Of a DNA stretch of 64,000 nt, positions 7,296 to 62,692 are shown in pieces. Under the pieces are notes generated by a model that was not told the DNA's origin, did not search any database, and was given only the letters and a program-made list of their open reading frames with translations. The DNA is taken from NCBI GenBank assembly GCA_025766275.1, contig JAFKAC010000073.1, positions 62,001 through 126,000 of the forward strand, given 5' to 3'. The translations under genes were made by a program, and so were the position numbers. Within the stretch, counting starts at the first letter, position 1; each line of letters opens with the position of its first letter. The stretch is from Lactarius indigo (Eukaryota; Basidiomycota; Agaricomycetes; Russulales; Russulaceae).

Positions 7296-7874
7296 CACTG
7301 ACAGCATGATTCTGTCTTTACAAGAAAAGATTGTAAAAAAGTGATGACTAATACTTAAAGATTTTATAAAATCTGTACTCGGAAAATTATGGTAAATGGA
7401 CTTTAAGTCCATTCAGGGATTATCAGATGAGAAAAACTGTGAAAAGACTTAACAATTACATATGCAAAAAACATATAGCTTATGTCACAATTGTCCTCAA
7501 GAAAAGCTGTGGCATGAATTTAAAGTCTTTCCACAATTTCTCAAAAACAGAAAATCCCTGAAAAGACATAAAGTCCATACCTGTCACACCTGTCACGCAT
7601 TTTTTCACAGTCCATTCTGTGGCCACATTCAGAAAAGATTTAACGTTTTTTCATTGAAAAATAACTTAACAATTTCTGCTACACAAGACTCCATGGAAAA
7701 ATTTAAAAGTTATCACAAAATCAGTAAGCCAGGTTACCTGAAACTCACATAATATATTATTTAGGGAAACTATTTATAGATAATATATTCAATAAGTGTC
7801 AGAATTGGAGACTAACAGTGTCAGAGAGTTGGAGTGTCAGAGTGTCAGAGAGTTGGAAAGTCAGATTGTCAGAG
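7296..7874 (+). repeat. CACTA left terminal inverted repeat
   Basis: Matches 21839-22417 in reverse complement at a constant coordinate sum of 29713. I saw a single mismatch, near 7322 (A versus C). The outer 500 bp is AT-rich unique sequence; the inner 80 bp is the first 8-bp repeat units. An open frame at 7462-7752 is identical in the other repeat only because the DNA is. Confidence 0.88.
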
Positions 7875-9386
7875 TGTTGGAGAGTCAGAGTGTCAGAGTG
7901 TCAGAGTGTCGGAGAGTCAGAGTGTCAGAGTGTCGGAGAGTCAGAGAGTCAGAGTGTCGGAGAGTCAGAGAGTCAGACAGTCAGAGAGTCAGAGTGTCAG
8001 AGAGTCGGAGTGTCAGAGAGTCAGAGAGTCGTAGAGTCAGAGAGTCAGAGAGTTGGAGAGTCAGAGAGTCAGAGAGTCAGAGAGTCAGAGAGTTGGAGAG
8101 TCAGAGAGTCAGAGAGTCAGAGAGTCAGAGAGTTGGAGAGTCAGAGAGTTGGAGAGTCAGAGCGTCAGAGTGTCGGAGAGTCAGACAGTAAGACAGTCAG
8201 AGTGTCTGAGTGTCAGACAGTCAGACAGTCAGACAGTCAGAGAGTCAGAGAGTCAGAGAGTCAGAGAGTCAGAGAGTCAGAGAGTCAGAGAGTCAGAGAG
8301 TCGGAGAGTCAGAGAGTTGGAGAGTCAGAGTGTCAGAGTGTCGGAGAGTCAGACAGTAAGACAGTCAGAGTGTCTGAGTGTCAGACAGTCAGACAGTCAG
8401 AGTGTCAGAGTGTCAGACAGTCGGAGTGTCAGACAGTCAGAGAGTCGTAGAGTCAGACAGTCAGAGAGTTGGAGAGTCAGAGAGTCGGAGAGTCAGAGAG
8501 TTGGAGAGTCAGACAGTCAGACAGTCAGACAGTCGGAGAGTCAGAGAGTCAGAGAGTCAGAGAGTTGGAGAGTCAGAGAGTCGGAGAGTCAGAGAGTTGG
8601 AGAGTCAGAGCGTCAGAGTGTTGGAGAGTCAGACAGTAAGACAGTCAGAGTGTCAGAGTGTCAGACAGTCAGACAGTCAGAGTGTCAGAGTGTCAGACAG
8701 TCGGAGTGTCAGAGAGTCAGAGAGTCATAGAGTCAGAGAGTCAGAGAGTTGGAGAGTCAGACAGTCAGAGAGTCAGAGAGTCAGAGAGTCAGACAGTTGG
8801 AGAGTTAGACAGTCGGAGAGTCAGACAGTCGGAGAGTCAGAGAGTTGGAGAGTCAGAGCATCAGAGTGTTGGAGAGTCAGACAGTCAGACAGTCAGAGTG
8901 TCAGAGTGTCAGACAGTCGGAGTGTCAGAGAGTCAGAGAGTCATAGAGTCAGAGAGTCAGAGAGTTAGAGAGTTAGAGAGTTGGAGAGTCAGAGAGTCAG
9001 AGAGTTAGAGAGTCGGAGAGTCAGACAGTCAGACAGTCAGACAGTCAGACAATCAGAGAGTCAGAGAGTCGGAGTGTCAGAGAGTCAGAGAGTCAGAGAG
9101 TCGGAGAGTCAGAGAGTCGAAGAGTCAGAGAGTCGAAGAGTCAGAGAGTCAGAGAGTCGTAGAGTCAGAGAGTCAGAGAGTTGGAGAGTCAGAGAGTCGG
9201 AGAGTCAGACAGTCAGACAATCAGAGAGTCAGAGAGTCGGAGAGTCAGAGAGTCAGAGAGTCAGAGAGTTGGAGAGTCAGAGCGTCAGAGTGTCGGAGAG
9301 TCAGACAGTAAGACAGTCAGAGTGTCTGAGTGTCAGACAGTCAGACAGTCAGAGTGTCAGAGTGTCAGACAGTCGGAGTGTCAGAG
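7797..9386 (+). repeat. 8-bp subterminal array, left part
   Basis: About 200 units of GTCAGAGA with variants GTCAGACA, GTCAGAGT, GTCGGAGA and GTTGGAGA. Blocks of roughly 80 bp rich in GTCAGACA/GTAAGACA/GTGTCTGA recur (near 8180, 8350, 8632 and 9300), so there is a higher-order period. The unit has no stop in any forward frame, giving long artefactual Arg/Glu/Ser frames. Interrupted by Gypsy G1 at 9387 and continued at 19231. Confidence 0.95.
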
Positions 9387-10082
9387 TGTGGTGAACTCAC
9401 TGTCACTCGACAGCGAGGGATACGGTTGAAGACGACGGCGGGCGAGGTAGAGACGGAGAGAGCGTCGAAGGGGGCGAAGAGGAGGCGTCTTGGCTCAAAG
9501 AAGATAGTGGCGCACACAAGGTGGGCCACTCGAAGGAGCTGAGAGGCAAGAGAGGAAGATGTCACAAGTGGACAGTCTGAGGGACTGTCCGATAGATTGC
9601 GCTGGCTTATATACTACAGGGGATGGTCTGTGCGTAGGTTTAGGGCAGGCTTAGGGCCTGTCCACGAGTGCTGCGCAATACTGTGGATTGGAACATTCCA
9701 GAGGCGAGTTATTAATACTGTCCAATCAGAATAAAGGATAAGCATGGTACGACTGCGCCGCAGTTGATGACGCCATATTGTGCCATAGTGGCGTGATTCC
9801 GCAGTAACTGCGGAACCTGTGATTAGAACACGTGTTCCTTGTGACTTGGTTGATTATCTTTGTTGATTGATAAACGATCAACCGTTGGTTGATATGCGTG
9901 CACCAGCACATGTGACTTTGGAAAGACAGGGTAATCACGTGACACATCATGTGACTGTCGGAGAGCGAAATTCAAACTCCGATTTCGGATTTCTCCTTTA
10001 GGAAGTTGATGACATAAGCCCGGTCTGATCCGGACCGGTCCTAAGCGCCTTGAGTCACGACCAGGTTTATAGGTTCGTGACA
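9387..10082 (-). repeat. G1 3' LTR
   Basis: 696 bp. Preceded on the minus strand by a polypurine tract (AAAAAGGGGA, at about 10086-10097) that overlaps the pol stop codon. Differs from the 5' LTR by seven substitutions. Confidence 0.93.
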
Positions 10083-10093
10083 GTATCCCCTTT

Positions 10094-13000
10094 TTAACGT
10101 CGTGCTATTCCACTAGCACTAGTTGTTTTTGGTTTAGGGGCACTGGGGTTGGCCTTGTGGAATTGACTAACAAGGTCTTGTGCATGGGTCATTTGGGAGG
10201 AGGGGAGCCAGGAGTTTTCGGAGTCAGGATACCCCTTCCACTTGATCAAGTAGAGTATGCCCTTCTTGTTAGGCGATACCTTGGATTGCAAGACCCTTTC
10301 AACCTCGTAGTGTTCATCTTCCCCTTGGATGATTTCAGGGGGTGGTCTGGTGAAGTTGGGGCCATGCGTAGTGTTTTCTTTGTATGGAGAGATCAAGGAG
10401 TTGTGGAAGACTGGGTGAATGCGCCATGTCTTTGGGAGTTGAAGCTTGCAATTGACTCCCCAGGTAGAAATGACTTTAAAGGGGCCGTGGCGTCGTGGAG
10501 CAAGCTTAGCCTTGGGGTGGGTAGTATGGATGTTGGTCCCTTCCAGCCAGACTAGATCGCCTATCTTGAATTCGTGAGAGGGGGTCGGTGTTTTTGACCC
10601 TTTCATGACTTCCACTGCTACCTTAAGAGCTGCGGTAACTTCAGAGCGGATTTGATTTAGTGCGTTTAGTCTCTCCTCGGCTGCAGGTATTTTGGTGGTG
10701 AAGTGGGTAGGGGGGATGAACTCTGGTTTGTATCCATACCAAACCTCAAAGGGTGATTTGTGGGTTGCGCTATGTTGTCGGGCATTGTGTGCGAATTCCA
10801 TGAATGGGATTAGATCCACCCAGTTATCTTGTTGGAAGTTGCAGAAGACACGAAGGTATTGTTCAAGTTCCTGGTTAACGCGTTCGGTTTCTCCATCAGT
10901 TTGTGGATGGAAGGCTGTAGATAACGTGGATTTGACTCCGAGTTTGTTCCAAATTTCTTGCATGACTTTTGATGCAAATTGGGGGCCTCTGTCGGATATG
11001 ACTTGTCGAGGAAGGCCAGTGCGTCTCCAGACATTGTCTAAGTAGAGTTGGGCTGTTTCGTCTGCAGTGATAGTTTTGTTGCACGGGGAAATGACTATTG
11101 CTTTGCTGAGTCAGTCAACCACTACAAATAGTGAATCGTAGTTGTGGGATAGGGGAAGGTCGGTGATGAAGTCCATTGTGATGGTTTCCCATATTTCTTC
11201 AGGTATTGCATTTGGTTGTAGGGGTACTTGGGTACGTGGTTTGATTTTAGTGGTTTGACATGTGGCGCATCCATCGACATAGGTTTTAACGAATGTTGAT
11301 ATGCCTGGCCACCAGAAGTCTCGAGATATTAATTCATAGGTCTTCCATCGCCCTGGATGTCCTGTGGCAATGTGGTCGTGGTATGTTTTAACAATGTCTC
11401 TTCGTAAGTTGTCGTCTTTTGGAACGTAGACTTGTCCCTTGAACAAGATAATGCCGTCTTCCAAGTTCCACTCTTCTAGACCCTTAGCTAGAGATCAGGG
11501 GCCATTTTTTAGAAGAGATTCTAGGGCCATGCTGACTTCCTTGTCATAGGTCTGGGTGTTTTTGATACGTTGTCGGAGGGTGGTATTACCGTGAATGGTT
11601 ACTGCAGTTCTTTGTACTGCGTTGATGGAAAAATATTTGGTGTCCAGGAGCACTCGCTTTTCATCTTCATCCACTATCCCCTTTTTATGATCTGGACGCC
11701 GAGACAGTGCATCAGATTTGTTCTGCGTTCCTGGTTTGTGGATGATGATGAACTGGAAGCGAGAGAGGAATAGGGCCCAACGGGCTTGTCGGCGGGAAAG
11801 CTTTTGTTTCGTGGTAAAATAGACAAGGTTGCCATGGTCAGACCAGATTTCAGTAACATCATCCCGCCCTTCCAGGTAGTGGTGGAAAGCATGTAGGGCA
11901 TGGATGATGGCAAGAAGTTCTTTGTCGCAGATTTCGTAGTGACGCTCGGCAGGAAGGAGGGATTTAGAAAGGAAGGCGACGGGGTGCCAACGTTGCAAGG
12001 CATCAGGTTGTTCCAGAATGGCACCGGTAGCAAAATCACTTGCGTCAGTGATGAGGCAGAAGGGTTTAGAATGGTCAGGTAGGGCAAGGACAGGAGCCTT
12101 GGTGAAACATTCGATCAGGGTGTGGAAAGCGCTTTCCGCCGCAGTACCCCAAGAAAAGGGGACATCTTTCTTGGTTAGGTCAAACAATGGACGGGCGATC
12201 GTGGAGTAGTCTTTAATGAAGCGTCGATAGAAGTTGCAAAAGCCTAGGAAGGCTTGTACTTGTTTGACGGTGCGTGGAGTGGGCCATTGAGTAATGCCTG
12301 CAACCTTTGCAGGATCCATAGAGACTTGGCCGTCGGAAATAATAATTCCGAGGTATTCAACTGAGGTTTGTGCAAATGTACACTTTTCAGGTTTTAGGTA
12401 GAGGTCGTGGCATTCCAGTCGTTGAAGCACGTTGTGCGTCAATGCTGTGAGTGAAGTGATATCTTCCGTGAAGATCAAGATGTCATCGAGGTAGACCACT
12501 ACATGACCACCGTCGATCAAGGGCTCGAAGAGTTGGTTCATGAATGTTTGGAAAGTGGCGGGGGCATTGCAGAGGCCAAAAGTCATTACGGTAGGCTCGA
12601 AAAGACCTAAAGATGTTTTGAAGGCTGCCTTATATTCATCGCCTTCGCGGATGCGGATATTGTTGTAACCCCAACGAATATCTAGTTTGGTGAAGTAACG
12701 AGCACCGTGAAGTTTGTCAATGAGTTCGGGGATAAGGGGGAGAGGTGCTGCGTTCTTTATGGTTATATCATTGAGGGCACGGTAGTCTTGTACAGGTCGG
12801 AGTTTGCCATCCTTTTTGTCGACAAAGAAGAATGGGGAGGCCATAGGTGACTTGGATGGTCGAATGTAACCTTTCTTTAGGTGTTCAGAAATGTACTCTT
12901 TGAGGGCATCGGATTCCTTTGGCGTGAGTCGATAAATGCCACAATTCTTCATAGTGGCTCCTGGTTTGAGATCAATTGCGTGATCCCAGGGCTGATGTTG

Positions 13001-13861
13001 GGGTAGTCGGTGGGACGCGATTTCGCTGAATACCTTAGTATATTGTTGGAAGTGGCTCGGGATGTGGTCGGTGGAAGGCTTAGGTGCAGTGCGTGCTGCT
13101 ATCTTGGTGCTTGTAGTTACTTTTGCTCGGATGGCAAGGTGGTCATACTTGCTAAAGCTGTGGATCCACAGCCAGGGTTCGCAGGCGTCGCCAACGAATG
13201 TCGGTTCCAGAGGTTCCATCTCATCGTTTGTGGGGAGGCAAGTTTCTTGGTTTGTGTCAAGTTCAAGAATGTTGATAGTTGTGTGTCGTGTTTGTGGAAC
13301 TTTTGAAGAAAGGACAACTGCTGAGGAGGATAGGGTGCAGGTTTTTGGACATCTTGTGAAGGCTATCTTGGGTTGATGCCAATCAATTTCAGGGTTATGT
13401 GCTTGGAGCCAATCCATTCCTAGGATTATATCATGCTCTCCTAGAGTAGTTGCATAAAGCTCCACGGTTTCGTCGTGGTAGTTGTCGTCCGAAGTTCTGA
13501 TCCGTAGTCTCTGGATCGTAGTATACTTAACAGATCCCGTCTTGTTGGGAGACCCATCCACGTTTCTAACTGGTAAGGGTTTAATTAGTGTCCGCATTGT
13601 TAGGTTGTTTGCTCGTGCAAACCCATCATCCACGATGATGCCCTCCGCGCCACTGTCCAACAGGGCACGGGCACTGATTTCTTTGCCAGACTTCTTTCCT
13701 ACTAGTGTAACTCTGAGAACAATTGAAGGAGCTCTCCTATTCCGAATTGTTTCTACAGGTACATGCTCGGCTCCGAGCGTCTCTAGTAGGGAAAGGCCAT
13801 GTACAACGCTACTGGCACTAATACTTCCAATCGACAGTGCTACGATGGAAGAGCCTAAAAA
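10094..13861 (-). pseudogene. G1 pol polyprotein with two TGA codons
   Basis: The frame opens in the -1 phase at the gag stop and runs to 10094, about 1255 codons. Aspartic protease LLDSGAEG lies near 13660; RT has YLDD and FGLCNAPATF; RNase H has TDASDFATGAI and SDALSRRPDH; integrase has an HHCC zinc region (HDHIATGHPG ... CATCQ), core VISDRGPQFAS and PQTDGETERVNQ; a chromodomain near the end reads YLIKWKGYPDSENSWLP. TGA codons interrupt it at 11495-11497 (between RNase H and integrase) and 11111-11113 (inside the integrase core, where family members read VVVDRLSK). Both are consistent with CGA-to-TGA. Otherwise the domains are complete. Confidence 0.9.
13824..13861 (-). promoter_or_regulatory. 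Candidate -1 frameshift signal at G1 gag-pol junction
   Basis: Gag ends GAT TTT TAG. The five Ts allow tRNA-Phe to slip one base back, after which the -1 frame is open and leads into protease. Three bases after the stop a stem begins: CTTCCA-TCG pairs with CGA-T-TGGAAG across a 9-nt loop (9 bp with one bulged base). A slippery run plus a nearby stem is the usual architecture, but T TTT TAG is not a textbook heptamer. Confidence 0.55.
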
Positions 13862-15405
13862 TCCTCATTAATAGGCACCGAACGTGGACGTGCATCCGGG
13901 TCAAAAGGGAGTATCTCTCGATATACCGCTCCTATGTTTGCTGGGTGGTCAGTAGGTGCTTCCTCCTGACTTGGTTCATCAACAAAGGCGCCGCGCGCCC
14001 TAGCGTTGTTGTTGGATTGGCCTCCTTTGGCCTTCATGGCTGCCGTCTTGGCGTGACATTCTTTAAGTACGTGGCCTGGTTTGCCACAGTACAGGCAGAG
14101 TTTATTCTTGAAGCGATACTCTCGCTCTTCCTTGGTAAGTTTGGCTTTTGGTTTAGTGGTGCGCGATGAGGAGGCGTTGACATTTACGCTATCGTCCTCC
14201 GCCAGGACTGCTCGCCCTGAAGTAGGCTTATGGGTTTTGTTAAACTGGTTAATGGCATGACCAGCGTAAATTCGATAGGCGCGATCAAATTCTCGTGCTT
14301 TCTCAACAAGGGTGTCGAAGGTGGTAGGGATGGGGGATATGCCAAGCAGTTTCATGTTTAAAGCCGTTGGGATAGCTTGTCGGAAAGCATACATTTTGGT
14401 TTGTTCGTTTGCACCACTTCGTGTAGCATGGGTTGACCACTCTTGGAACCATTCGTTGAAAGGTCGGGTCCCCATTTTTAGAGAGTACATTTTGTTGGTG
14501 GATTCCATGGCAGTGTGACCAGGAACGAAGTGTGCATCAAAGTCGGTTTTGAACTGTGCCCAGGTGCCAAAGGATACTGCCGCTCCTCCAGTTGGGTTCA
14601 AGGCTTTCTTTTGTCTATCTTGAGCCCATTCTCCAGCTGAGGTCCCAACCTTGAAGTAGGTGAGAGCAGTAGATATCTTTTTATTGTCTGTATTAAAGAT
14701 ATCTTGGTTTAGGTGGAAGTAGTTGGCTAGGTTGTTCCAAAAAGCTTCAGCATGGTTGGGCTTGCCATCAAAGGGCTCAGGCGCTGCGCCTAAGATTTTT
14801 GCAGGTGCAGGGGCTGCCATTGTGGTGGGTACAGGAGGAACGGATAAGGGGGGTGCTGAGGAAGAGGCTTGAACAGTTAGGGGTGGTGATGGGAGTCGAT
14901 GTGGTGGAACTATTGCAGGGAAGCGACTTGGGCCGGAGGTACTAGGGGAAATCTGGGGCGTCGAGGGTCGGGAGGTTACTTGGGAGAGTAGACCAGAAAG
15001 TTTCTTTGTAGTAGTATCTAGGATTTGTGATACTTCTTCCGTATCACTTTTCGAATCGTCGGATTCACTAGGTGTGTTGAAGTGGACTGGTTTGTTGTTT
15101 AGGTAGATCCACTGCTTGTTTACAAAGTTCCAACGGACGTTCTTTCCTTTGAAGATGGCGTGTAGGGTGTTGTAGTTCACGTTCTCAACTTTTTCGATAT
15201 CTGGAAAGGCTTCTTTGAGGTCCTGGAAAACAATTTGATGTTGGGTAGCAACTATTGTCCACGGGTGTTTTCCTGTAGGACTGGATATATCCTCTTCCTT
15301 CCACTTGGCGTAGTAAAGATTGTCGGTAAGGGAAAAATAGGGGTCAAAGAAGTATACTGGGATATGGGTTTTTTCTTCTGGTGTGAGAGGTCGTTGTGTA
15401 TTCAT
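13855..15405 (-). CDS. G1 gag
   Basis: 516 residues from an ATG (MNTQRPLTPEEK). Contains a retrotransposon-gag-like capsid region (EPFDGKPNHAEAFWNNLANYF, then a conserved W and FxxFxxxF pattern), a Ser/Pro-rich linker before it, and one CCHC zinc knuckle near residue 445 (CLYCGKPGHVLKEC). It should package the RNA and form the particle. The start ATG overlaps the stop of the upstream Met-less frame C (ATGA), and pol follows in the -1 frame. It has eight Met codons, a normal number, unlike the three frames ahead of it. Confidence 0.9.
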   Translation of the reverse strand: MNTQRPLTPEEKTHIPVYFFDPYFSLTDNLYYAKWKEEDISSPTGKHPWTIVATQHQIVFQDLKEAFPDIEKVENVNYNTLHAIFKGKNVRWNFVNKQWIYLNNKPVHFNTPSESDDSKSDTEEVSQILDTTTKKLSGLLSQVTSRPSTPQISPSTSGPSRFPAIVPPHRLPSPPLTVQASSSAPPLSVPPVPTTMAAPAPAKILGAAPEPFDGKPNHAEAFWNNLANYFHLNQDIFNTDNKKISTALTYFKVGTSAGEWAQDRQKKALNPTGGAAVSFGTWAQFKTDFDAHFVPGHTAMESTNKMYSLKMGTRPFNEWFQEWSTHATRSGANEQTKMYAFRQAIPTALNMKLLGISPIPTTFDTLVEKAREFDRAYRIYAGHAINQFNKTHKPTSGRAVLAEDDSVNVNASSSRTTKPKAKLTKEEREYRFKNKLCLYCGKPGHVLKECHAKTAAMKAKGGQSNNNARARGAFVDEPSQEEAPTDHPANIGAVYREILPFDPDARPRSVPINEDF

Positions 15406-16091
15406 TCACCTCTTCTGGTGAGGTGGGTGACAGTCCAACTGTCCAGGTTCCAGGGGTAGTAGACCTTGTATGCAGGGAGGAGGATAGCTCTATCTGGACG
15501 ATGGGGTCTTTGTGAACGACGGATCCAATGGTATTCTTCCCAAATACCAAAATGGGTCAGGGTTGTCTTACTTCTCCACAAGAAGTCTTGGAAATACAAG
15601 GGGCTTGTCGAAACCTCGCTTATGCGCGTAAGTGGCTGGGAAAAATACAGGGTTTCAAGATTGTGCCGGTTTTGGTACAACAGAGAACAGTGTCTTCTGA
15701 ACACGTCGAGTTCTCGGGGGGTTCGGGTTGGTAGGCTCTTGGTTACTAAGATAGCCTCCGGGAGATGACAATGGATTTCTCGGGGTTGGGTCTCAAGATA
15801 CTGAGCTTCGTCACTGCTCGTGGAATGCTGCCTCGCAGTCGGAGTTGCTTGGATACTGGGGTACACCGGTTCACTTGGACCGGCTTGGTTAATACTCGGA
15901 AGGGGGATCTGGGTGTTGGTAGCTCGACGAGCTCGGGGGGCCCTTCTTGGGGTTACAGGGGTACTCGGGGTGGAGGCTATGGGCCGATCGTCTACTTGGA
16001 AGCGACGATGAGTTCTTCTTTGGGCGACGTGTGAAGATGCCAGGTTAATTGCCCAATGAATTGGATCCAGGGTTTTTGGCTCGGAAAATTG
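15402..16091 (-). CDS. G1 frame C, Met-less, overlaps gag by ATGA
   Basis: 229 open codons from the preceding TGA (16092-16094) to TGA at 15402-15404, with no ATG. I do not recognise the family. The N-terminal part (LDPIHWAINLAS, then Arg/Pro/Ser-rich) is basic; the C-terminal part has aromatic clusters (YFQDFLWRS, YKVYYPWN). It follows frame B after a hairpin-rich gap of 45 bases and ends inside the gag start codon, an arrangement known from coupled or leaky translation in some pararetroviruses. Real coding is inferred from the length of the open frame. The translation start is unknown; the strand's first GTG is at 15866. Confidence 0.5.
   Translation of the reverse strand, partial: QFSEPKTLDPIHWAINLASSHVAQRRTHRRFQVDDRPIASTPSTPVTPRRAPRARRATNTQIPLPSINQAGPSEPVYPSIQATPTARQHSTSSDEAQYLETQPREIHCHLPEAILVTKSLPTRTPRELDVFRRHCSLLYQNRHNLETLYFSQPLTRISEVSTSPLYFQDFLWRSKTTLTHFGIWEEYHWIRRSQRPHRPDRAILLPAYKVYYPWNLDSWTVTHLTRRGE
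15407..15443 (-). promoter_or_regulatory. Two hairpins just upstream of the G1 gag start
   Basis: On the minus strand GACAGT pairs with ACTGTC over a 3-nt loop (15429-15443), then CACCTC pairs with GAGGTG over a 7-nt loop (15407-15425). The second ends one base before the overlapping stop/start ATGA. Position suggests a role in termination-reinitiation or start selection; this is inference. Confidence 0.5.
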
Positions 16092-16093
16092 TC

Positions 16094-16163
16094 AAATTTT
16101 ACACTCGTAAAATTTTTCTCAACAATCTATACTATCTAGTCCTTTTCTCTATAAGGTAGATAG
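16094..16163 (-). promoter_or_regulatory. Hairpins at the frame B to frame C junction
   Basis: 16132-16163: CTATCTA pairs with TAGATAG, with an inner CCTT/AAGG stem; the stop codon of frame B (TAG, 16136-16138) lies in the 3' arm. 16094-16115: a 9-bp perfect stem (AAATTTTAC with GTAAAATTT) closed by the tetraloop GAGT, ending next to the in-frame TGA that bounds frame C. Confidence 0.6.
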
Positions 16164-17119
16164 TTAACTCCAGGGGACCACAACACTACGTTGGGGGGTG
16201 TCGGGGGGGTGTCAGGACGATAACCGCAGGTACAGACTTCTTGAGAGCACCAACAGGGGCCTGAGGTCAGAGTTGGTCCCCAACCGTCGTTAGGACTGGG
16301 TGGCTGGTTAGTGTCTCCATTGTGAAGGGAGATGTCAGAGTCTGTAGATTCGTCTTCAGTTTCAGGGGAACTAGGGGGAAGCCGATCTGTAATTCGGTGG
16401 AGCAGGGGCGGAGTCCGGAAGGTTTCTCTGGCGTTGAGAATTGACACTAATTCGGGGTCGTCAGAGGTTGAAGGAGGGTAGTGCCAGGTACTAGGGTTGA
16501 CAAGGTTCCGGTCAGGATTGGTCAAGGTTGTTTCCCACACGGAGGTGGCAAAGGAATAAGTCAACTCTGAGCTATCGGAGATGACTAGACGGGGGGCAGA
16601 GTCGGGGTGAATGACCACTCGGATTTCTTGGAAGGAAATCTGTATTTCCTGATATGTGAGGCAGAGTCGGTCGACAAAATGAAGAGAGAAACCGTCTTCT
16701 AGTTGCTGGATATAGTGATCGCGACGAGGGGGAACGTGGACAAACCAAAGATAGTCGCTCTTGGCCCACACTAGGAGTTGGTCTGTCGGATGATTGGTGG
16801 CAGAGACGGAGTTGGAAAGGTGCCAATACAGGAGTTGTTCGTCGGCAGCCTTGACAATGTCGGAAAGGTCGTCAATAAACTCGTGGTAAACCCTTTCAGG
16901 GATGACTTCTCCAAAGTCAAAGAGGTCGATGAGGGTTCGTAAGGCGGTAGGGGGTTCTGTCCAACAGTCAAGACGGGGGTTATCAATGAGGTCATAAGTG
17001 GAAGTGACGGGGTAATAACGGTCAAGTTGCCGCTGCCTGTGGGATTCAAAGTTAACTTGGGCTCGTGTGAGCCTTTGTTCTTCAGGTAAGTTGAAGGTGA
17101 ACGGAGTGGAAGGAGGCAC
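16136..17119 (-). CDS. G1 frame B, 327 codons without any Met
   Basis: Opens directly after a TAA (17120-17122) and runs 327 codons to TAG with no ATG. The predicted protein looks globular and acidic (FDFGEVIPERVYHEFIDDL, LLVWAKSDYLWFVHV), followed by a Ser/Asp-rich linker and a Cys-rich tail (CWCSQEVCTCGY) that could bind metal. I do not recognise it. Two out-of-frame ATGs fall within it. Lack of an initiation codon means expression needs a non-AUG start, recoding or splicing. The first codon after the stop is GTG, part of the 3' arm of a GAGT-loop hairpin. Confidence 0.5.
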   Translation of the reverse strand: MPPSTPFTFNLPEEQRLTRAQVNFESHRQRQLDRYYPVTSTYDLIDNPRLDCWTEPPTALRTLIDLFDFGEVIPERVYHEFIDDLSDIVKAADEQLLYWHLSNSVSATNHPTDQLLVWAKSDYLWFVHVPPRRDHYIQQLEDGFSLHFVDRLCLTYQEIQISFQEIRVVIHPDSAPRLVISDSSELTYSFATSVWETTLTNPDRNLVNPSTWHYPPSTSDDPELVSILNARETFRTPPLLHRITDRLPPSSPETEDESTDSDISLHNGDTNQPPSPNDGWGPTLTSGPCWCSQEVCTCGYRPDTPPTPPNVVLWSPGVNYLPYREKD

Positions 17120-17234
17120 TTAAATCACTCGATTTAAGTCCAAATTCTAATAAGTAAACACTTACTTACTTTGCGTTGCACTTAAAACACTCGTTTCAAG
17201 ACAAGGCAAATATATAACCACTTATCTAAAGTGG
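17118..17234 (-). promoter_or_regulatory. Four-hairpin cluster between frames A and B
   Basis: In minus-strand order: CCACTT/AAGTGG with the stop codon of frame A in the 5-nt loop (17218-17234); CTTGAAAC/GTTTTAAG with loop GAGT and one G-U pair (17181-17200); TAAGTAA/TTACTTA with loop GTGT (17151-17168); ACTTAAATC/GATTTAAGT with loop GAGT (17118-17139). The whole gap between the two frames is hairpin-forming. Confidence 0.65.
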
Positions 17235-18503
17235 CTGGTCGTCGGGGAAAGTGGAAATGAAACTAAAAGGGTCCGCAGGGATACGAGGCGAAAGACAATA
17301 AGCAAGAAGGTGGGGGGCAGAGCGCACTAGGTCTTCAAAGAAGTAGGCCTGGTGGTAAGCGTAAATTTGTCCGTTAAAAGCAAAACGTAAGTGTCCGTAA
17401 GTGGTCACGATCCTCCCATCTAAGAAGTCCTGGATCTCTAGCGTCACTAGAGAGTCAATATATCCGGCCCTGTGTACGTTAGTGAGGGGGGCGAAGGCAC
17501 GTCTCAGTCCTTCCCTGAAATCGTATCAGATAGTTCCGAGGGGGGTGTCAGGGGAGGGAAGGTCGTAGATGGCCTTAGAACAGATGTACAAGGGAGGAAA
17601 GTCGGGGTGTTGAGCGGGGTCAACGATGCGCGGGAAAAGGGTGTAGACGTGAGGGGGAAGAAGACGGAAAGGGGTAACAGAAGGGAAGACCGGAGGGAAA
17701 TTAGCGAGTGAGGTGGCGAGGGGAACTTTACTAATCAGTTCCCGGAGGGTCGTGGAAGCGGGCCGCCAAGATTCTCCTTGGGGGGTGACGACGGCGATGT
17801 ACTGGTGGGGGTGTTCTCCTTGGGAAAGGAGGCAAGGGGGCGCCTGGTAGGCGGTGGGACCGAGGGGCGGAAGGTTCTCTTGTTCGGGGTGGGGGGCCGG
17901 AGGAAAGACGGGGCCTTGTTCTGCTACTCGCTCGTAGTTAATCGGCGAGTCGGGGGTCGCAAGGCGGGAGGGGACCGGAACAGGAGACGGAGAGCGACGA
18001 GGAAACGGAGGAAGAACAGGAGGTGGCGAAGGAGAGCCACGAAGGGAAACAGGAGGGCGGGGGGTCGGGACTCGGAGGGGAGGCGCAGACTCGGCGCAGG
18101 GTTCAGGGGATAAGGGGACAAGGTTCCCGTTGAGGTCAATGATCTCGAGGACCTCTTCGTAGAACTGGGCGATGCTGGGGGACAGGGAACGAGGGGACGG
18201 ACGAGGAGTGGCTTCTTCAGCCGGAGCGTAGGGGTAGACTAGTTCGGGGGTTGCGTCCCGAACAAGGGCAACAGGGGCGGGAGGCTCGTTGCCTCCGAAG
18301 GTGGCAGGGGTGTAGGGGGCGGTGAAGCGGAGGCTGTCAAGATGGACAGCAGAGGAGGAGGGGACAGGGGAAGTTCGGGAAAAGTCGAGGGGGCTACCTT
18401 GGTTGTCGAACTCTGACTGGTAGCTGGCAGAGTCTCCGTCCCACTGACCATACTGCGAGAAGTCGTACTCGTAGTTGTAGTCAGTCACTGGAACAGCCCG
18501 GGG
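17226..18503 (-). pseudogene. G1 frame A, Met-less, one TGA
   Basis: 425 codons from just after the primer site to TAG at 17226-17228, with no ATG. One in-frame TGA (17526-17528) interrupts it; readthrough joins ...TPLGTI to YDFREGLRRAF. The N-terminal two thirds is Pro/Ser-rich with an acidic start (DFSQYGQWDGD); the C-terminal third looks conserved and globular (LEIQDFLDGRIVTTYGHLRFAF, AYHQAYFFEDL). No family recognised. Position right after the 5' LTR is where gag normally begins. The first near-cognate codon is GTG at 18486-18488. An out-of-frame ATG at 18451 opens a 70-codon frame. Confidence 0.5.
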
Positions 18504-18517
18504 TCAGTCTATTGGAG

Positions 18518-18527
18518 AGACTGTCCA
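18518..18527 (-). promoter_or_regulatory. G1 self-priming primer-binding site
   Basis: Two bases inside the 5' LTR the minus strand reads TGGACAGTCT. The complementary AGACTGTCCA occurs in the same LTR starting at 18721, 35 bases after the start of TATATAAG, i.e. where the transcript should begin. Complementarity between RNA 5' end and primer site is the Tf1/sushi self-priming mechanism. Inference from geometry. Confidence 0.65.
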
Positions 18528-18529
18528 AG

Positions 18530-19225
18530 TGTGGTGAACTCACTGTCACTCGACAGCGAGGGATACGGTTGAAGACGATGGCGGGCGAGGTAGAGACGGA
18601 GAGAGCATCGAAGGGGGCGAAGAGGAGGCGTCTTGGCTCAAAGAAGATAGTGGCGCACACAAGGTGGGGCACTCGAAGGAGCTGAGAGGCAAGAGAGGAA
18701 GATGTCACAAGTGGACAGTCTGAGGGACTGTCCGATAGATTGCGCTGGCTTATATACTACAGGGGATGGTCTGTGCGTAGGTTTAGGGCAGGCTTAGGGC
18801 CTGTCCACGAGTGCTGCGCAATACTGCGGATTGGAACATTCCAGAGGCGAGTTATTAATACTGTCCAATCAGAATAAAGGATAAGCATGGTACGACTGCG
18901 CCGCAGTTGATGACGCCATATTGTGCCATAGTGGCGTGATTCCGCAGTAACTGCGGAACCCGTGATTAGAACACGTGTTCCTTGTGACTTGGTTGATTAT
19001 CTTTGTTGATTGATAAACGATCAACCGTTGGTTGATATGCGTGCACCAGCACATGTGACTTTGGAAAGACAGGGTAATCACGTGACACATCACGTGACCG
19101 TCGGAGAGCGAAATTCAAACTCCGATTTCGGATTTCTCCTTTAGGAAGTTGATGACATAAGCCCGGTCTGATCCGGACCGGTCCTAAGCGCCTTGAGTCA
19201 CGACCAGGTTTATAGGTTCGTGACA
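18530..19225 (-). repeat. G1 5' LTR
   Basis: 696 bp. Contains TATATAAG (18756 down to 18749), an 8-bp hairpin GGACAGTC/GACTGTCC (18713-18733) over the presumed start site, and a U5 hairpin with the same C-GAGT-G apex (18539-18560). The other LTR has the same elements 9143 bp to the left. Confidence 0.92.
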
Positions 19226-19230
19226 CAGAG

Positions 19231-21586
19231 AGTCAGAGAGTCGTAGAGTCAGAGAGTCAGAGAGTTGGAGAGTCAGAGTGTCAGACAGTCAGACAGTCAG
19301 ACAGTCAGACAGTCAGACAGTCAGACAATCAGAGAGTCAGACAGTCGGAGTGTCAGAGAGTCGGAGAGTCAGAGAGTCAGACAGTCGGAGAGTCAGAGAG
19401 TCAGAGAGTCAGAGAGTCGGAGAGTCAGAGAGTCAGAGAGTCAGAGAGTCAGAGAGTCAGAGAGTTGGAGAGTCAGAGTGTCAGAGTGTCGGAGAGTCAG
19501 ACAGTAAGACAGTCAGAGTGTCTGAGTGTCAGACAGTCAGACAGTCAGAGTGTCAGAGTGTCAGAGAGTCGGAGTGTCAGAGAGTCAGAGAGTCAGAGAG
19601 TCAGAGAGTTGGAGAGTTAGAGAGTCGGAGAGTCAGAGAGTCAGAGAGTCAGAGAGTCGGAGAGTCAGACAGTCAGACAGTCAGACAGTCAGACAATCAG
19701 AGAGTCAGAGAGTCGGAGAGTCAGAGAGTCAGAGAGTCAGAGAGTCGGAGAGTCAGAGAGTCGAAGAGTCAGAGAGTCAGAGAGTCGTAGAGTCAGAGAG
19801 TCAGAGAGTTGGAGAGTCAGAGAGTCGGAGTGTCAGACAGTCAGACAGTCAGACAGTCGGAGAGTTAGACAGTCGGAGAGTCAGACAGTCAGACAATCAG
19901 AGAGTCAGAGAGTCAGAGAGTCAGAGAGTCGGAGAGTCAGAGAGTCGAAGAGTCAGAGAGTCAGAGAGTCAGAGAGTCGGAGAGTCAGAGAGTCGGAGAG
20001 TCAGAGAGTCGGAGAGTCAGAGAGTTGGAGAGTCAGAGAGTCGGAGAGTCAGAGAGTCGGAGAGTCAGAGAGTTGGAGAGTCAGAGAGTCGGAGAGTCAG
20101 AGAGTCGGAGAGTCAGAGAGTTGGAGAGTCAGAGAGTCGGAGAGTCAGAGAGTCGGAGAGTCAGAGAGTCGGAGAGTCAGAGAGTCGGAGAGTCAGAGAG
20201 TCGGAGAGTCAGAGAGTCGGAGAGTCAGAGAGTCGGAGAGTCAGAGAGTCGGAGAGTCAGAGAGTCGGAGAGTCAGAGAGTCAGAGAGTCGGAGAGTCAG
20301 AGAGTCAGAGAGTCAGAGAGTCGGAGAGTCAGAGAGTCAGAGAGTCGGAGAGTCAGAGAGTTGGAGAGTCAGAGTGTCAGAGTGTCGGAGAGTCAGACAG
20401 TAAGACAGTCAGAGTGTCTGAGTGTCAGACAGTCAGACAGTCAGAGTGTCAGAGTGTCAGACAGTCGGAGTGTCAGACAGTCAGAGAGTCGTAGAGTCAG
20501 ACAGTCAGAGAGTTGGAGAGTCAGACAGTCAGACAATCAGAGAGTCAGAGAGTCGGAGTGTCAGAGAGTCGGAGAGTCAGAGCGTCAGAGAGTCGGAGAG
20601 TCAGACAGTAAGACAGTCAGAGTGTCAGAGTGTCAGACAGTCAGACAGTCAGACAGTCAGACAGTCAGACAGTCAGACAGTCAGACAGTCAGACAGTCAG
20701 ACAGTCAGACAGTCAGAGAGTCGGAGAGTCAGACAGTCAGAGAGTCGGAGAGTCAGACAGTCAGAGAGTTGGAGAGTCAGAGAGTCAGAGAGTCAGAGAG
20801 TCAGAGAGTCAGAGAGTCGGAGAGTTAGAGAGTCGAAGAGTCAGAGAGTCGGAGAGTCAGAGAGTCAGAGAGTCAGAGAGTTGGAGAGTCAGAGCATCAG
20901 AGTGTCGGAGAGTCAGACAGTAAGACAGTCAGAGTGTCAGAGTGTCAGAGTGTCAGAGTGTCAGACAGTCAGACAGTCAGAGTGTCAGAGTGTCAGACAG
21001 TCGGAGTGTCAGACAGTCAGAGAGTCGTAGAGTCAGAGAGTTAGAGAGTTGGAGAGTCAGACAGTCAGACAGTCAGAGAGTCGGAGAGTCAGACAGTCAG
21101 ACAGTCAGAGAGTCGGAGAGTCAGACAGTCAGACAGTCAGAGAGTCGGAGAGTCAGACAGTCAGACAGTCAGACAGTTGGAGAGTCAGAGCGTCAGAGTG
21201 TCGGAGAGTCAGACAGTCAGAGTGTCACAGTGTCAGACAGTCAGACAGTCAAAGTGTCACAGTGTCAGAGAGTCGGAGTGTCAGGCAGTCAGAGAGTCGT
21301 AGAGTCAGACAGTCAGAGAGTCGGAGAGTCAGAGAGTTGGAGAGTCAGACAGTCAGACAGTCAGAGTGTCAGAGTGTCAGACAGTCAGACAGTCAGACAG
21401 TTGGAGAGTCAGACAGTCGGAGAGTCAGACAGTCAGACAGTTGGAGAGTCAGACAGTCGGAGAGTCAGAGTGTTGGAGAGTCAGAGTGTCAGAGTGTCAG
21501 ACAGTCAGACAGTCAGAGTGTTAGAGAGTCAGAGCGTCAGACAGTCAGAGTGTCAGACAGTCAGACAGTCAGAGTGTCAGAGTGTC
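19231..21586 (+). repeat. 8-bp subterminal array, continuation
   Basis: About 290 further GTCAGAGA-type units in the same orientation as 7797-9386, separated from it only by Gypsy G1. One stretch (about 19990-20290) is a regular 16-bp alternation of GTCAGAGA and GTCGGAGA. A run of GTCAGACA units lies near 20640-20710. Confidence 0.95.
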
Positions 21587-21917
21587 GACTCTCTGACTCT
21601 CCGACTCTCTGACTCTCCAACTCTCTGACTCTCCGACTCTCTGACTCTCTGACACTCTGACACTCTGACACTCTGACACTCTGACACTCCGACACTCTGA
21701 CTGTCTGACTGTCTGACACTCTGACACTCTGACACTCTGACTGTCTGACACTCCGACACTCTGACTCTCTGACTCTCCGACACTCTGACACTCTGACTCT
21801 CCGACACTCTGACTCTCTGACTCTCTGACTCTCTGACACTCTGACAATCTGACTTTCCAACTCTCTGACACTCTGACACTCCAACTCTCTGACACTGTTA
21901 GTCTCCAATTCTGACAC
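21587..21917 (-). repeat. 8-bp subterminal array, inverted right part
   Basis: About 41 units of the same repeat in reverse complement (TCTCTGAC), meeting the forward array at a GTCGAC core. It belongs to the right end of the transposon, so both arrays point inwards. Confidence 0.93.
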
Positions 21918-22417
21918 TTATTGAATATATTATCTATAAATAGTTTCCCTAAATAATATATTATGTGAGTTTCAGGTAACCTGGCTTACTGATTTTGTGA
22001 TAACTTTTAAATTTTTCCATGGAGTCTTGTGTAGCAGAAATTGTTAAGTTATTTTTCAATGAAAAAACGTTAAATCTTTTCTGAATGTGGCCACAGAATG
22101 GACTGTGAAAAAATGCGTGACAGGTGTGACAGGTATGGACTTTATGTCTTTTCAGGGATTTTCTGTTTTTGAGAAATTGTGGAAAGACTTTAAATTCATG
22201 CCACAGCTTTTCTTGAGGACAATTGTGACATAAGCTATATGTTTTTTGCATATGTAATTGTTAAGTCTTTTCACAGTTTTTCTCATCTGATAATCCCTGA
22301 ATGGACTTAAAGTCCATTTACCATAATTTTCCGAGTACAGATTTTATAAAATCTTTAAGTATTAGTCATCACTTTTTTACAATCTTTTCGTGTAAAGACA
22401 GAATCATGCTGTCAGTG
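21839..22417 (-). repeat. CACTA right terminal inverted repeat
   Basis: Reverse complement of 7296-7874 with one mismatch seen. Ends CAGTG, followed by the target duplication GCG. Confidence 0.88.
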
Positions 22418-32986: not shown

Positions 32987-35900
32987 ATGTCCCAAATTCC
33001 GTCTTCTTCCACCTCTTCCACAAGCTTTGAGGCAATCTTTACAGCTGCTTTGGAGGCATACAAAAAGCAGACAAAGAACGACATTACGGCTCATCCCCTA
33101 GCTGCCCAGCTGAAGTCCTGCGACTCTCCCGGTGCCGTTCTTGACCTGCTCCAAGCCCAAGTTCAGGCGTTCGATAAATCTCAAAGTGGAAACAAAAGGT
33201 TGACGAACTGGTTGGATCCAACTGTCAATGTCTTGTTCGCGTTCTCCACGACCCTAGGAAACGCAGTTGGGCTGGTAATTACTAGAGGTTAAGCTTCATA
33301 GTGTCTACCCTCTGATGTGTTGAATTGATAGGTATACCCACCTTCGAATGCGATTTTCGCGGGCATTGGCGTCCTCCTCCAAGTGAGCATCTTTCTTGAA
33401 CCCGCATGTGGACTTCGTGACAAATACATCGCCTAGGCCGTTAAGGACGTTCGCGCTAGCCAAGACGCTCTTATAGACCTGTTTGGCCGCATGGACAACT
33501 TTTTCAAGCGCCTTGAAAAGCATATAGAGGTCCGACCGACCGCAGCTATGACGGACGTCATCGTGAAGATCATGGTCGAGGTTCTGTCGATCCTTGGGAT
33601 TATGACGAAGGAGATCGGTCAGGGAACTATGAGTATGTCCCTTCCATGTTGAGATATCTCCAAGAGTCGACCTTTTTGCAGAGAAGTACCTGAAGAAGCT
33701 GGTTGGAAGGAAGGACGTGGAGGACGCGCTTCAGCGTCTAGACAAATTGACGCAAGCAGAGGCGCTCATGGCAGCAGCAGAAACCCTAGCAATCGCTCGC
33801 GGGATTGATGCCAAGGTCGAGGACGTAGACGGAAAGGTCCAAGGTGTCGACGAGAGGGTACAGAGTGTTGATATGAAAGTAGAGGGCATCAACGACAAGG
33901 TGCAAGACGTCGACAGTAAAGTTCAGGACGTCGACAGCAGGGTACAAGGTGTCGACACCAAGGTGCAGAGCGTTGACGGCAAGGTCCAGGGCATCGACAC
34001 CAAGGTAGAAGGCGTCGACAACAAGGTCCAGGGCGTCGACAGCAGGGTACGGACCGTCGACAGCAATGTACAGGGCGTTGACCACAAAATTGGTTCCGTC
34101 ATTCAAGGTAAGTCATACCTCCATCAGCTGGTCCCCGAACTTATCCTTAGCCTTTTACTTGGATAGGTGTAAAAGAGACCGGGATAGCGATTCAACAAGT
34201 GGTTGATCAAGTCAGCGACCTAAATAGTTCGTGATTTATAACCTCATCACAGACGATTACCAGAGCTTAGCCTCTCTTACAGAGAATGAGATACGCAAGG
34301 ACCTTCGAAAATGGATCGCTCCCCCCGATCCATCTGTCAATTACAACTCTGCATCTGGCGCTCATCACGAGGGTACCGCATCGTGGTGCATCAAAGGGAG
34401 CACTCTCGCAAATTGGAAATCCTCAGGTTCCTTGTTGTGGATTCACGGAAGACGTACGTATCCCATCACCGTCTGAGTGAGTCTTGATCGTTTTAACGGC
34501 CCCTAAATTGATAGCTGGCTCCGGGAAGAGTATTCTCAGGTGTGTCACCCCCCGCCGAGTTGCGTCCTAATCAAACTTATATGTTCGACAAGTTCCGTGA
34601 TCATCCGGGACATCAAATCCATATCCGATTCCGGGTCGGCTTTCTTGGCTTATTTTTACTTCGATTTCAAGAACAAAGAAAAACAGGACTCCCGCGCTTT
34701 ATTATCCTCCCTTCTTTTCCAACTCTCCGATCAATCTGATATATTTTTGGGCGCTCTTTTCTCCCTGTACTCCGCACACAAAAAAGGATCGGAACAACCA
34801 ACTGTCGACTCGCTCGCGGAGTGCCTGAAGGATACGCTCAGAAGCATGGGACCAGTACCGATTTATCTCGTCATGGATGCTCTCGACGAGTGTCCCAATG
34901 ATTCTGGAATTCCGACGCCACGTGAAATGGTCTTGGACCTGGTGAAGGAACTCGTCAACCTTCGCCGTCCAGATCTGCGCCTATGTACAACGAGTCGCCC
35001 AGAGTTCGACATTCGCAACGTATTTGATACTTTGGCAACTCAACAACTATCCATCCACGACGAAAGTGGACAAAGACAGGACATTTATGATTATGTTACC
35101 TTTGTCGTTCGCTCAGATCGAAGGATGAAGAATTGGCGAGACGATGACAGAGACGCAGTCATCGAGAATCTGACAAAGAAAGCAGACGGAATGTAAGGGC
35201 GCCTCCGGTTCACACGACCATACTGTTATCTTATGTTTTCACACAGGTTCCGTTGGGTTTTCTGTCAATTGGAGGTCTTGCGACACTGTTTCCCTGCAAA
35301 TCTGCGTCAGATCCTCGCGGAACTGCCCAGATCACTGGATGAGACATACATGCGTATTATCAAGGAGATCAATCACGTGAACCGGGCGCTCGCGTATCGA
35401 CTTTTGCAATGTCTCACGGTGGCCCATCGTCCACTCCGGGTCGAGGAGCTCGCAGAAGTGCTCGCGTTCGACTTGAGCATAGGAGGGATCCCAAAATTGG
35501 TCGCAGGTTGGCGGTGGGAAGACCAAGAAGAAGCGGTGCTGTCGGCGTGTTCCAGTTTGGTTTCCGTAATCGTCGACAAAGGCTTCCGGATTGTTCAGTT
35601 CTCGCATTTCTCCGTAAAAGAATTCCTGACGTCGGATCGGCTCGAGAGTTGCGCGGGAGAGATGTCCCGGTTCTATATTCCCATCGAACCTTCCCACGTG
35701 ATCCTTGCCCAAGCTTGTCTCGGTGTCTTGCTCCGCCTGGGACCCATGTATGACCCCGCCGACGAAGAGAGCATCGAGGATGTGGAGAGGATTCCCTTCT
35801 GTCAATATGCCGCCGAATATTGGTATCGGCACGCGGAGATCGGAAATGTAGAATCACACATAAAGGACGCAATGGATGATTTCTTCGACGCGGACAAGCC

Positions 35901-53804: not shown

Positions 53805-54669
53805 ACCCATCGGCCTGGGTGAGGGCTTTAAATTGTAATTCTGTAATCATGACGCGCTTTCGTTCTCTTCGAATTCCAGTCTCGATTCGTACGAATTACC
53901 GAATGGCCGACATAAAAGCATTGGTGGATTCGGGAGCCACCGACAACTTCATACACCCGAACTTCATCAAAAAAATGGGTATCGGGACCCAGCAACTAAT
54001 CCAACCGCGGAAGGTCTGGAACATAGACAGTACAGAAAACAAAGCTGGGTCCATCACTCACTTCACCGATCTGGATGTATACGCCAACGGATATCATAGG
54101 ACCATGAGATTCCTTATCACGAATCTTGGAAACGAAGAAGTTGTCCTGGGATACCCTTGGTTGGCAACCTACGAACCAACCATTAATTGGCGAGACGCGG
54201 TCATACATGAAAAGATCATGCCAGTTGTGATCAGCACGCAGGACAGTCTGGACCGTCACACCGTCATCGCAACCGCGCTAACTAATGATGAAAAGGAAAT
54301 GATAGTCCTCGAACTAGACGAAGAAGACACATACTTGCGAGCAACTACGTCCACAGAATTGGCCATCCAGGCCAAGGGGGAGGAAAAGCCCGTAGAACTG
54401 CCGGCAGTCTACCACGCCTTCCAACAACTCTTCAGCGAAGAAGCATCACAACGATTTCCCCCCGCCAGACCGTGGGACCACGCGATAGACTTCAAGCCGG
54501 GTACCCCTTCAGCAATAGACTGCAAAATATACCCATTAACGCAGGAAGAGGAAGGGAAACTCAAGGAATTTCTAGACGAAAAACTGCAGCAAGGATATCT
54601 GCGACCCTCCATATCCCCGTACGCATCTTCATTCTTCTTTGTCAAAAAGAAGGACGGAAAACTACGCCC

Positions 54670-55296
54670 TGATGAACAGCACACATAGATAGCTTACTCA
54701 CAGAGGGACAAAGTGTTCTGTGGTGAGACAAGCTGGGTGGCTGGAAGCAGCAACAGGAAAGTCTAGCAAGGTAAAGCAAAGTGTCTGGCACACAAACAGT
54801 GAGAACTGATAATGGTTACATTGGAGGGAGGAAAGCTTACCTGGCACACAAACAGTGAGAACTGATGTGGACCAGGAGCGTACATGGTACTCTACTTATA
54901 CTCCTACAGAGGGTGACAGTAGTACAACGCAAGTAACGCTAGTCACAGAATACAAAGGTGCTATTGTTCTACAAAGGGACAAAAGAGTGGACGCTTTGAG
55001 AACAAGTGAGAGGAGAACAAGAAGAGTCCAGAGCTAGATGATATCATACTGACATCATAATAAGGATAATGCCAAGTAAAGAACAAAGGAAAGTACAAAG
55101 GCGTTATACAACGCAGAGTCTGGATGTATGATGTCATTAGAAGTACAGTGATGTCATGTGTGACGCAATGATAAGTCTAGATTGTACAGATCAAATGGTA
55201 TCTAATCTACAAGTCCTGTATATCTAATCTAAAGCAGTCCATGCTGCAAGTCCGGTCCATACGAGCCGCTAAGTGCGCAAGGGTCACTTATCAACA
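54670..55296. mobile_element. Solo LTR-like insertion in G2 RT
   Basis: 627 bp starting TGATGA and ending TCAACA, with 5-bp target duplication CGCCC (54665-54669 and 55297-55301). No coding frame. An internal direct repeat of about 26 bp (CTGGCACACAAACAGTGAGA...) occurs near 54783 and 54841. The termini resemble the Copia LTR ends, so it is probably a solo Copia-type LTR left by recombination; orientation not determined. Confidence 0.75.
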
Positions 55297-62600: not shown

Positions 62601-62692
62601 GAAGAACATAACCGTAGGTTCAAAAAGGCCGAATTTAGTCTTGAACGCCGCCTTCTCTTGGTCCCCATCGTGGATGCGTATGTTGTTATAGC
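59652..62692 (-). pseudogene. G3 pol: RT, RNase H, integrase, chromodomain, tail start
   Basis: Minus-strand reading from the solo LTR: NNIRIHDGDQEKAAFKT, FFGLTNSPATFQ, YMDDIGIA; RNase H EVDASGYAVGAV and RADALLRWPDY (the usual DALSRRPD altered); integrase GHPGTARTQRILE, core IISDQDPRFTSKF and TDGQSERTNQ; chromodomain YLIKWKGYPNLENQW. TGA codons at 62169-62171 (LT-stop-KD), 61371-61373 (LE-stop-HY) and 60099-60101 (PL-stop-HV). Ends where G2 is inserted. Confidence 0.87.

Follow-up and report, generated by a model that had tools for sequence, protein, structure and literature searches.

A leader kept free of AUG codons ahead of gag, with predicted splice-made starts of two of its genes, in a Gypsy-type retrotransposon of Lactarius indigo

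How can ribosomes reach the gag gene of a retrotransposon through a leader of about 3.3 kb that is filled with three long open frames, and how can these frames be translated when none of them contains a Met codon? This question is raised by G1, a Gypsy-type long terminal repeat (LTR) retrotransposon on the minus strand of a 64,000-nucleotide (nt) stretch of the Lactarius indigo genome (contig JAFKAC010000073.1, positions 62,001 to 126,000; the whole stretch is called the window below). An original prediction, made from the letters of the window, held that the frames, here A, B and C, are translated from non-AUG starts while scanning ribosomes still arrive at the gag AUG. In this study, we concluded that the leader of the genomic RNA is held AUG-free for about 3.3 kb by selection. 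For the starts of the frames we propose a model, which we consider fairly probable from sequence comparison, in which unspliced RNA would be scanned to gag through the AUG-free leader, the AUGs of A and B would be made by splicing, and C would begin at a CUG.

The counts of the original prediction were reproduced. Between the LTR end and the gag ATG (3,124 nt) there are four ATGs, at 18451, 17419, 16995 and 16320, and no others; frame B has 327 codons, frame C 229, and frame A 325 followed by TGA (17528-17526) and 99 more, with no Met in any of them, and gag has 8 Met in 516 codons. The comparison with the Copia leader in the window holds loosely (13 ATGs within 1.1 kb at 33500-34600). A fifth ATG of the window copy (18608) sits in its 5' LTR and is absent from its own 3' LTR. 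Copies of the leader were searched for in the source genome (90.3 Mb), where 40 of 160 candidates were scored and all 40 matched. Three sets were used: 40 copies, namely the window copy and the 39 others most like it; 41 copies, namely the window copy, 38 of these 39 others that have a TATA box, and L049 and L050 of a diverged subfamily; and 42 copies, namely 39 of the 40 window-like copies (L045 has no TATA box) with L049, L050 and L051. Frame B of L050 is only 54% identical to that of the window copy. The older or rearranged copies L051 to L054, which have leader ATGs (e.g., 10 in L051 and 2 in L054), were left out of the ATG counts.

From the predicted RNA start to gag, about 3.3 kb, 22 of the 41 copies contain no ATG, and L049 and L050 have none in 3,419 and 3,412 nt, respectively. 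The mean per leader was 0.95 for ATG versus 31 for CAT, the antisense ATG (n = 41), and gag has about 20 ATGs per 1.5 kb. In the 40-copy set, 21 leaders lack ATG and any single ATG position is common to at most three copies by this count; the 30 ATG sites comprise 28 found in one or two copies and two in three or four, with none in five or more, whereas 45 of 104 CAT sites occur in at least five copies. Rare, little-shared ATG sites beside persistent CAT sites indicate that mutation creates ATGs which are then lost again from the lineage. For five leaders (window, L010, L016, L049, L050), 31.6-34.6 ATGs would be expected from base composition and 17.0-22.2 from a first-order Markov model, while those observed from the predicted RNA start were 5, 0, 0, 0 and 0 in this order. 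The codon-shuffle control that had been suggested was run on A, B and C of L050 with the proteins kept, giving a mean of 8.6 out-of-frame ATGs, and none of 5,000 shuffles reached zero. An effect of base composition, considered as an explanation, is ruled out by these expectations and by the contrast with CAT.

Selection on the encoded proteins, another check put forward with the prediction, was also found. The mean pairwise ratio of nonsynonymous to synonymous substitution (dN/dS; 780 pairs) was 0.15 for A before the TGA and 0.05 after it, 0.07 for B and, over the whole open frame, 0.08 for C; the two other frames of A, B and C gave 1.6-3.5, and gag in frame 0.13. Between the window copy and L050 the values were 0.19, 0.18 and 0.085 for A, B and C. 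The TGA in A occurs in 3 of 40 copies (window, L020, L021) and is a sense codon in the remaining 37; programmed readthrough, tried as an explanation, was rejected for this reason. Purifying selection on the frames together with AUG avoidance argues for scanning to gag, as in plant pararetroviruses. When the leader is compared with rice tungro bacilliform virus (RTBV), the upstream open reading frames (ORFs) lack internal AUGs in every frame in 22 of the 41 copies, with no common ATG, the window copy itself retaining four to five.

Protein relatives numbered 22 for B, 37 for C and 41 for A, the searches for C and A having scored the best 7,992 and 7,994 candidates, respectively, by most words in common. 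Internal Met is scarce in them as well: two per 4,543 residues in the 15 B relatives other than NCBI gene models, nine per 8,043 residues in all 37 C relatives, and 11 in total in the 13 A relatives other than named NCBI models, nine of which have none. Of the B relatives, seven are NCBI gene models, and their 2,998 residues include 11 internal Met; those of P0002, P0009, P0010 and P0022 fall at the predicted A or B start, and the five of P0017 elsewhere. The named relatives come from Lactarius species, and Lactarius hypothetical proteins (e.g., P0002, P0010 and P0060) match frames A and B, some of them joined across the predicted introns. No significant Pfam, PDB-sequence or fold match was obtained for A, B or C. 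Models of B and C have a matching order of helices and strands in their later folded part, where their profiles align (E 0.0015, probability 17%), so that a domain common to B and C is possible; the profile of A aligned with neither.

The starts of A and B point to splicing. Frame-shifting indels among the copies show where the frames are limited at the 5' side: for A they are common up to 18494, with just four single-copy events past the start, and for B none lies beyond 17135. The conserved start candidate in both is GTG, in CCAGTG for A (TCAGTG in L050) and TTAAGTG for B, and the first G of each GTG closes an AG acceptor situated some 50 nt downstream of an A-preceded consensus GTRAGT donor. 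Among 42 leaders, 39 have three GTRAGT words, two (L049 and L050) have two, and one has four; in the seven leaders where they were mapped, one stands at the U5 end and one, tandem or single, before B, with no others, and A precedes both donors. The distance from donor to AG/TG is 54-56 nt for A (41 of 42 copies) and 49-53 nt for B (40 of 42). The pattern A-GTRAGT-N(40-52)-AGTG occurs three times in L010, the tandem donor being counted twice, and twice in L050, against means of 0.010 and 0.007 in the respective Markov sequences, none of 300 reaching two for either leader; it was not found on the antisense strands of these two leaders. At CCAG/TG, no more than one of 40 copies deviates per base, and neighbouring bases deviate in 15-20. 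Of 41 copies, 24 have CTGAC as the first branch-like word of intron 1, 15-16 nt from its end, and 17 have CTAAC or CTAAT at a site farther upstream. Thus, from these sequence features, the AUGs of A and B are probably assembled by splicing from an exon-final A and a following TG.

Related proteins can be read against these junctions. Read across them, the window copy gives SLSSD-M-TDYNYEYDF at junction 1 and LPCLETSVLSATQ-M-PPS at junction 2 (ATQ-M-PP). A Met at junction 1 is present in 15 of the 34 named Lactarius proteins among 47 examined (SLSSD-M-SDYDYDF or similar); at junction 2, P0002 and P0010 read NAT-M-PP, the former as LPCPLNRVIQTNAT-M-PPP. Simple ATG starts in the relatives were considered and, from the protein sequences, provisionally set aside: the Met at the Lactarius A start falls on the predicted junction, where P0007, P0064 and P0099, read unspliced, have V.

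For C, there is no splice donor ahead of the frame, and the CTG at 16070, in the context ACC-CTG-G or AAC-CTG-G, is identical in 40 of 40 copies. Just before it, at 16078-16077, indels of 2 nt occur in 16 copies and of 1 nt in 14, with one of 5 nt at 16071 in a single copy; beyond it, indel lengths are 3, 6 or 9, except for a single 2-nt event near the end of C in one copy. The leader of L050 has RNN-CTG-G in two places, the C start and a site 30 nt further in frame, and most of the 13 distant C relatives long enough to cover this site have Leu at the head of the conserved motif. From this pattern, C most likely starts at the conserved CUG. Five C relatives (P0045, P0049, P0051, P0055 and P0057) have a different common N-terminus, one of them starting with V, and their C start may be of another kind. 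Of the claim that all three frames begin at non-AUG codons, the part on C agrees with the CUG, and the part on A and B is not supported, because their GTGs lie on predicted acceptors and would become A/TG by splicing. The original prediction had named the splicing of the frames to an AUG exon as speaking against it, and such splicing is what we predict for A and B from sequence.

Downstream of C, the first ATG of gag (ATG1) overlaps the C stop as ATGA in the subfamily of the window and lies 3 nt past the C stop in L049 and L050. In 39 copies (L019, L028 and L036 of the 42 were excluded, their second start not being located by the motif), ATG1 always has U at -3, and the second start (ATG2) always combines a purine at -3 with G at +4. 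The two are 195 codons apart in 35 copies and 213 in four; the stretch between them is ATG-free in 33 and has one ATG in six, and the next 600 nt contain 12.7 on average. A weak ATG followed by a strong one is the order that leaky scanning needs, and Gag is likely made in two forms, a long one from the weak AUG and a short one from the strong AUG 195 codons on. The core of Gag matched Retrotrans_gag above the cut-off, with zinc-knuckle matches below it. The end of gag shares 10 nt with pol, read in the -1 frame, at 13855-13864 (GATTTTTAG); judged by eye, this overlap is consistent with -1 frameshifting with the stop in the A site.

At the other end of the leader, the TATATAA spacing and the 9-nt complementarity between GACTGTCCA and the primer-binding site (PBS) are present in all 42 copies with a TATA box, the RNA 5' end being predicted from the distance to TATA; this fits self-priming of the Tf1 type with an RNA start near 18720. 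Several hairpins with a GAGU loop accompany the predicted splice sites (Table 1), and the stem of the one at acceptor 2 shows, by eye, one compensating change between subfamilies. Those enclosing donor 1 and acceptor 2 probably lower the efficiency of splicing.

Considering these results, we propose a plausible course of G1 expression. Unspliced RNA would have no AUG ahead of gag, and ribosomes would scan to the CUG of C and on to the two gag AUGs, one weak and one strong, so that intron-containing RNA would yield C at a low level plus Gag. Removal of intron 1 would make the AUG of A the first one and eliminate the PBS; the AUG of B would come first in RNA that has lost only intron 2 or in which donor 1 has been joined to acceptor 2. 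The introns would be spliced and often retained. As the PBS lies within predicted intron 1, splicing there would leave an RNA unfit for reverse transcription and keep the messengers of A apart from the genomes. Going further, splicing may act as a start-codon switch with one product per RNA form, in which the hairpins over the splice sites, perhaps bound by a protein that the element encodes, set the balance and time the change from leader proteins to Gag and genomes, and the CUG and weak AUG grade C, long Gag and short Gag; this extension is tentative, and we rate its chances slightly below even.

Table 1. Positions of the features of G1 in the window, including predicted ones.
Feature	Position	Strand	Remarks
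5' LTR	18530..19225	-	696 bp, TGTCACGA...TCACCACA, 7/696 mismatches vs 3' LTR
Predicted RNA 5' end GACTGTCCA	18712..18720	-	36 nt after TATATAA; complementary to PBS
Hairpin CUCGCUGUC-GAGU-GACAGUGAG	18539..18560	-	9-bp stem encloses predicted donor 1; folded in 4/4 copies tried
Predicted intron 1	18488..18543	-	56 nt, GTGAGT...CTGAC (18507-18503)...CAG; contains PBS
PBS TGGACAGTC	18519..18527	-	after LTR, inside predicted intron 1
Frame A	17226..18487	-	would read from A/TG at splice junction; TGA of this copy at 17528-17526
GAGU hairpin	17181..17200	-	just upstream of predicted donor 2; A/B spacer, 4/4 folded copies
Predicted intron 2	17119..17169	-	51 nt, tandem donor GTAAGTAAGT...TTTAAG
GAGU hairpin	17118..17139	-	around predicted acceptor 2 (AAG/UG); 4/4 folded copies
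Frame B	16136..17118	-	would read from A/TG at splice junction; dN/dS 0.07, 22 homologues
GAGU hairpin	16094..16115	-	B/C spacer; subfamily of the window, not L048-L050; read from sequence
Frame C	15402..16070	-	from conserved CTG in ACC-CTG-G (predicted start); stop overlaps gag ATG (ATGA)
gag N-terminal extension	14821..15405	-	195 codons from the weak-context ATG1, without another ATG
gag core	13855..14820	-	from ATG2 (strong context)
pol	10094..13864	-	protease, reverse transcriptase, RNase H, integrase, chromodomain; stops of this copy at 11497-11495 and 11113-11111
3' LTR	9387..10082	-	696 bp

Several points weigh against this model, which is predicted from sequence. Scanning over 2.6-3.3 kb would far exceed the distance of 900 nt in reports on RTBV. 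The leader overall shows no depletion of near-cognate codons in good context, such as strict scanning might want (TTG, 5 seen versus 3.0 expected in L010 and 7 versus 2.4 in L050; CTG, 5 versus 3.8 in L049). The AAG of acceptor 2 is a less usual acceptor, no clear branch site was seen in intron 2, and no genomic copy with either intron lost was found, near matches proving unrelated. As to the proteins, P0007, P0064 and P0099 (3 of 47) read junction 1 unspliced (LVSDY), P0009 has NAT-M and then a different exon, and the gene models of Lactarius, perhaps predicted ab initio, tend to force an ATG; the unnamed homologues are protein sequences alone, in which splice sites cannot be read. Ahead of junction 2, the reading frame is open in the window copy and L016 and interrupted by stops in L046, L049 and L050, so that likeness upstream of this junction carries little weight.

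Other explanations of the leader have to be weighed against the same evidence. Leaky scanning on one unspliced RNA could serve all three frames, with starts at GUG, GUG and CUG and the introns unused. An AUG-free leader and the good context of the C CUG suit this explanation, as does the V that comes first in 8 of 13 A and 6 of 15 B homologues outside named gene models, which GUG starts would give; the base at -3 is poor, however, being C or U at the GUG of A and U at that of B, and GTRAGT donors about 50 nt before exactly these two GTGs, like the AG before each TG, are left unexplained. We therefore regard it as unlikely. The close spacing of the C stop and the gag ATG, overlapping or 3 nt apart, could also suggest termination and reinitiation from A to B to C to the gag AUG, with the hairpins as reinitiation signals. 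Such a course needs no AUG avoidance in all three phases within the frames or between the two gag ATGs, and the A-B and B-C spacers of about 65-140 nt are AUG-free in ATG-free copies, which makes it very improbable.

Donors at the U5 end and before B are likewise what would be expected if A, B and C came from spliced RNAs only and gag from RNA with the whole leader removed, AUGs being absent for another cause, e.g., avoidance of RNA decay. Then AUGs within A, B and C would not have to be avoided for the sake of gag, and the avoidance concerns the sense ATG specifically, CAT being common; we give this explanation scarcely any credence. A more limited alternative, compatible with splice-made AUGs and scanning, concerns only the hairpins, which may be packaging or dimerisation signals rather than controls of splice sites. 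Retroviral packaging signals lie near the PBS, one hairpin of G1 adjoins it, and all of them would be kept in unspliced RNA. Predicted splice sites lie within two of the four hairpins, and a third stops just short of such a site, which leaves this function possible, if somewhat doubtful.

As a whole, G1 is 9.8 kb long with a 5-bp target-site duplication (CTCTG) at both ends, and its LTRs, which begin with TG and end with CA beside this short duplication, are as in Ty3/Gypsy chromoviruses. The domain scan, covering the pieces of pol on either side of a middle piece (11114-11494), matched RVP_2, RVT_1 and RT_RNaseH on one and rve and Chromo on the other. By the order of pol domains and these LTR features, the element is a Ty3/Gypsy chromodomain retrotransposon. 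The synonymous divergence between L050 and the window copy is about 1-2.3 across A to C, but 0.17-0.33 for gag, and L048 mixes a window-like A/B spacer with an L050-like C start; together these suggest recombination between subfamilies, leader and gag seeming to differ in history. Among window-like copies, gag has diverged more than the leader, perhaps partly through bad alignment. G1 is inserted within a long array of 8-bp repeats (GTCAGAGA) that stretches over 7820-9386 and 19226-21893, and 7296-8126 and 21587-22417 form an 831-nt inverted repeat, 97% complementary. Two more Gypsy-like elements lie at 51927-59154 and 59613-63998, in opposite orientation and partly 74-75% alike, the plus-strand one apparently having several hundred additional codons past the integrase end.

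The leader frames define three protein families without a Pfam match, with relatives in several Lactarius species and many database sources, and they account for a set of Lactarius annotated 'hypothetical proteins'. Such genes are easily missed by gene finders, because there is no ATG in the DNA. If the model is true, G1 would offer a natural test of the distance over which fungal ribosomes scan, about 3.3 kb or several times that in RTBV, and of splice-assembled start codons that separate messenger from genome on one RNA. The layout was not described among the best matches in the open-licence literature, by titles and beginnings of abstracts, for leader ORFs, non-AUG or splice-made starts, leaky scanning, and Lactarius or basidiomycete LTR elements.

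Parts of the layout resemble known systems. Retroviruses express accessory genes via a common 5' splice donor and gag-pol from unspliced RNA, with the PBS near the first donor. G1 would likewise use unspliced RNA for gag-pol and spliced RNAs for extra proteins, with the PBS close to predicted donor 1; in contrast, its extra genes precede gag instead of following pol, its PBS lies inside a predicted intron, and the AUG itself would be spliced together. In EBNA-LP of Epstein-Barr virus, splicing creates the start codon, and the AUG exists in spliced RNA only, as predicted here, but this is one unrelated gene with no AUG-free genomic leader. Tf1-like chromoviruses self-prime, and G1 shares with them a PBS that can pair with the 5' end of the RNA, here a predicted one, and a chromodomain in pol; Tf1 is not known to have leader genes. 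RTBV and badnaviruses (Caulimoviridae) use leaky scanning through ORFs I and II over 900 nt, and the accessory ORFs of RTBV, without internal AUGs, lead from an AUU start to a moderate AUG and the main AUG, with P4 made from spliced RNA (PMC5902531). G1 has likewise cleared internal AUGs from accessory ORFs ahead of the main one; G1 differs in being a fungal LTR retrotransposon with a leader of about 3.3 kb, two accessory AUGs predicted at splice junctions and accessory proteins of no Pfam family. The plant Copia elements BARE (PMC3735527) and EVADE (PMC8892269) are reported to have separate RNA pools, splicing giving a Gag-only RNA. Splicing in G1 would similarly part messengers from full-length RNA in an LTR retrotransposon, with the roles exchanged: Gag would come from unspliced RNA, and the leader proteins from spliced RNA.

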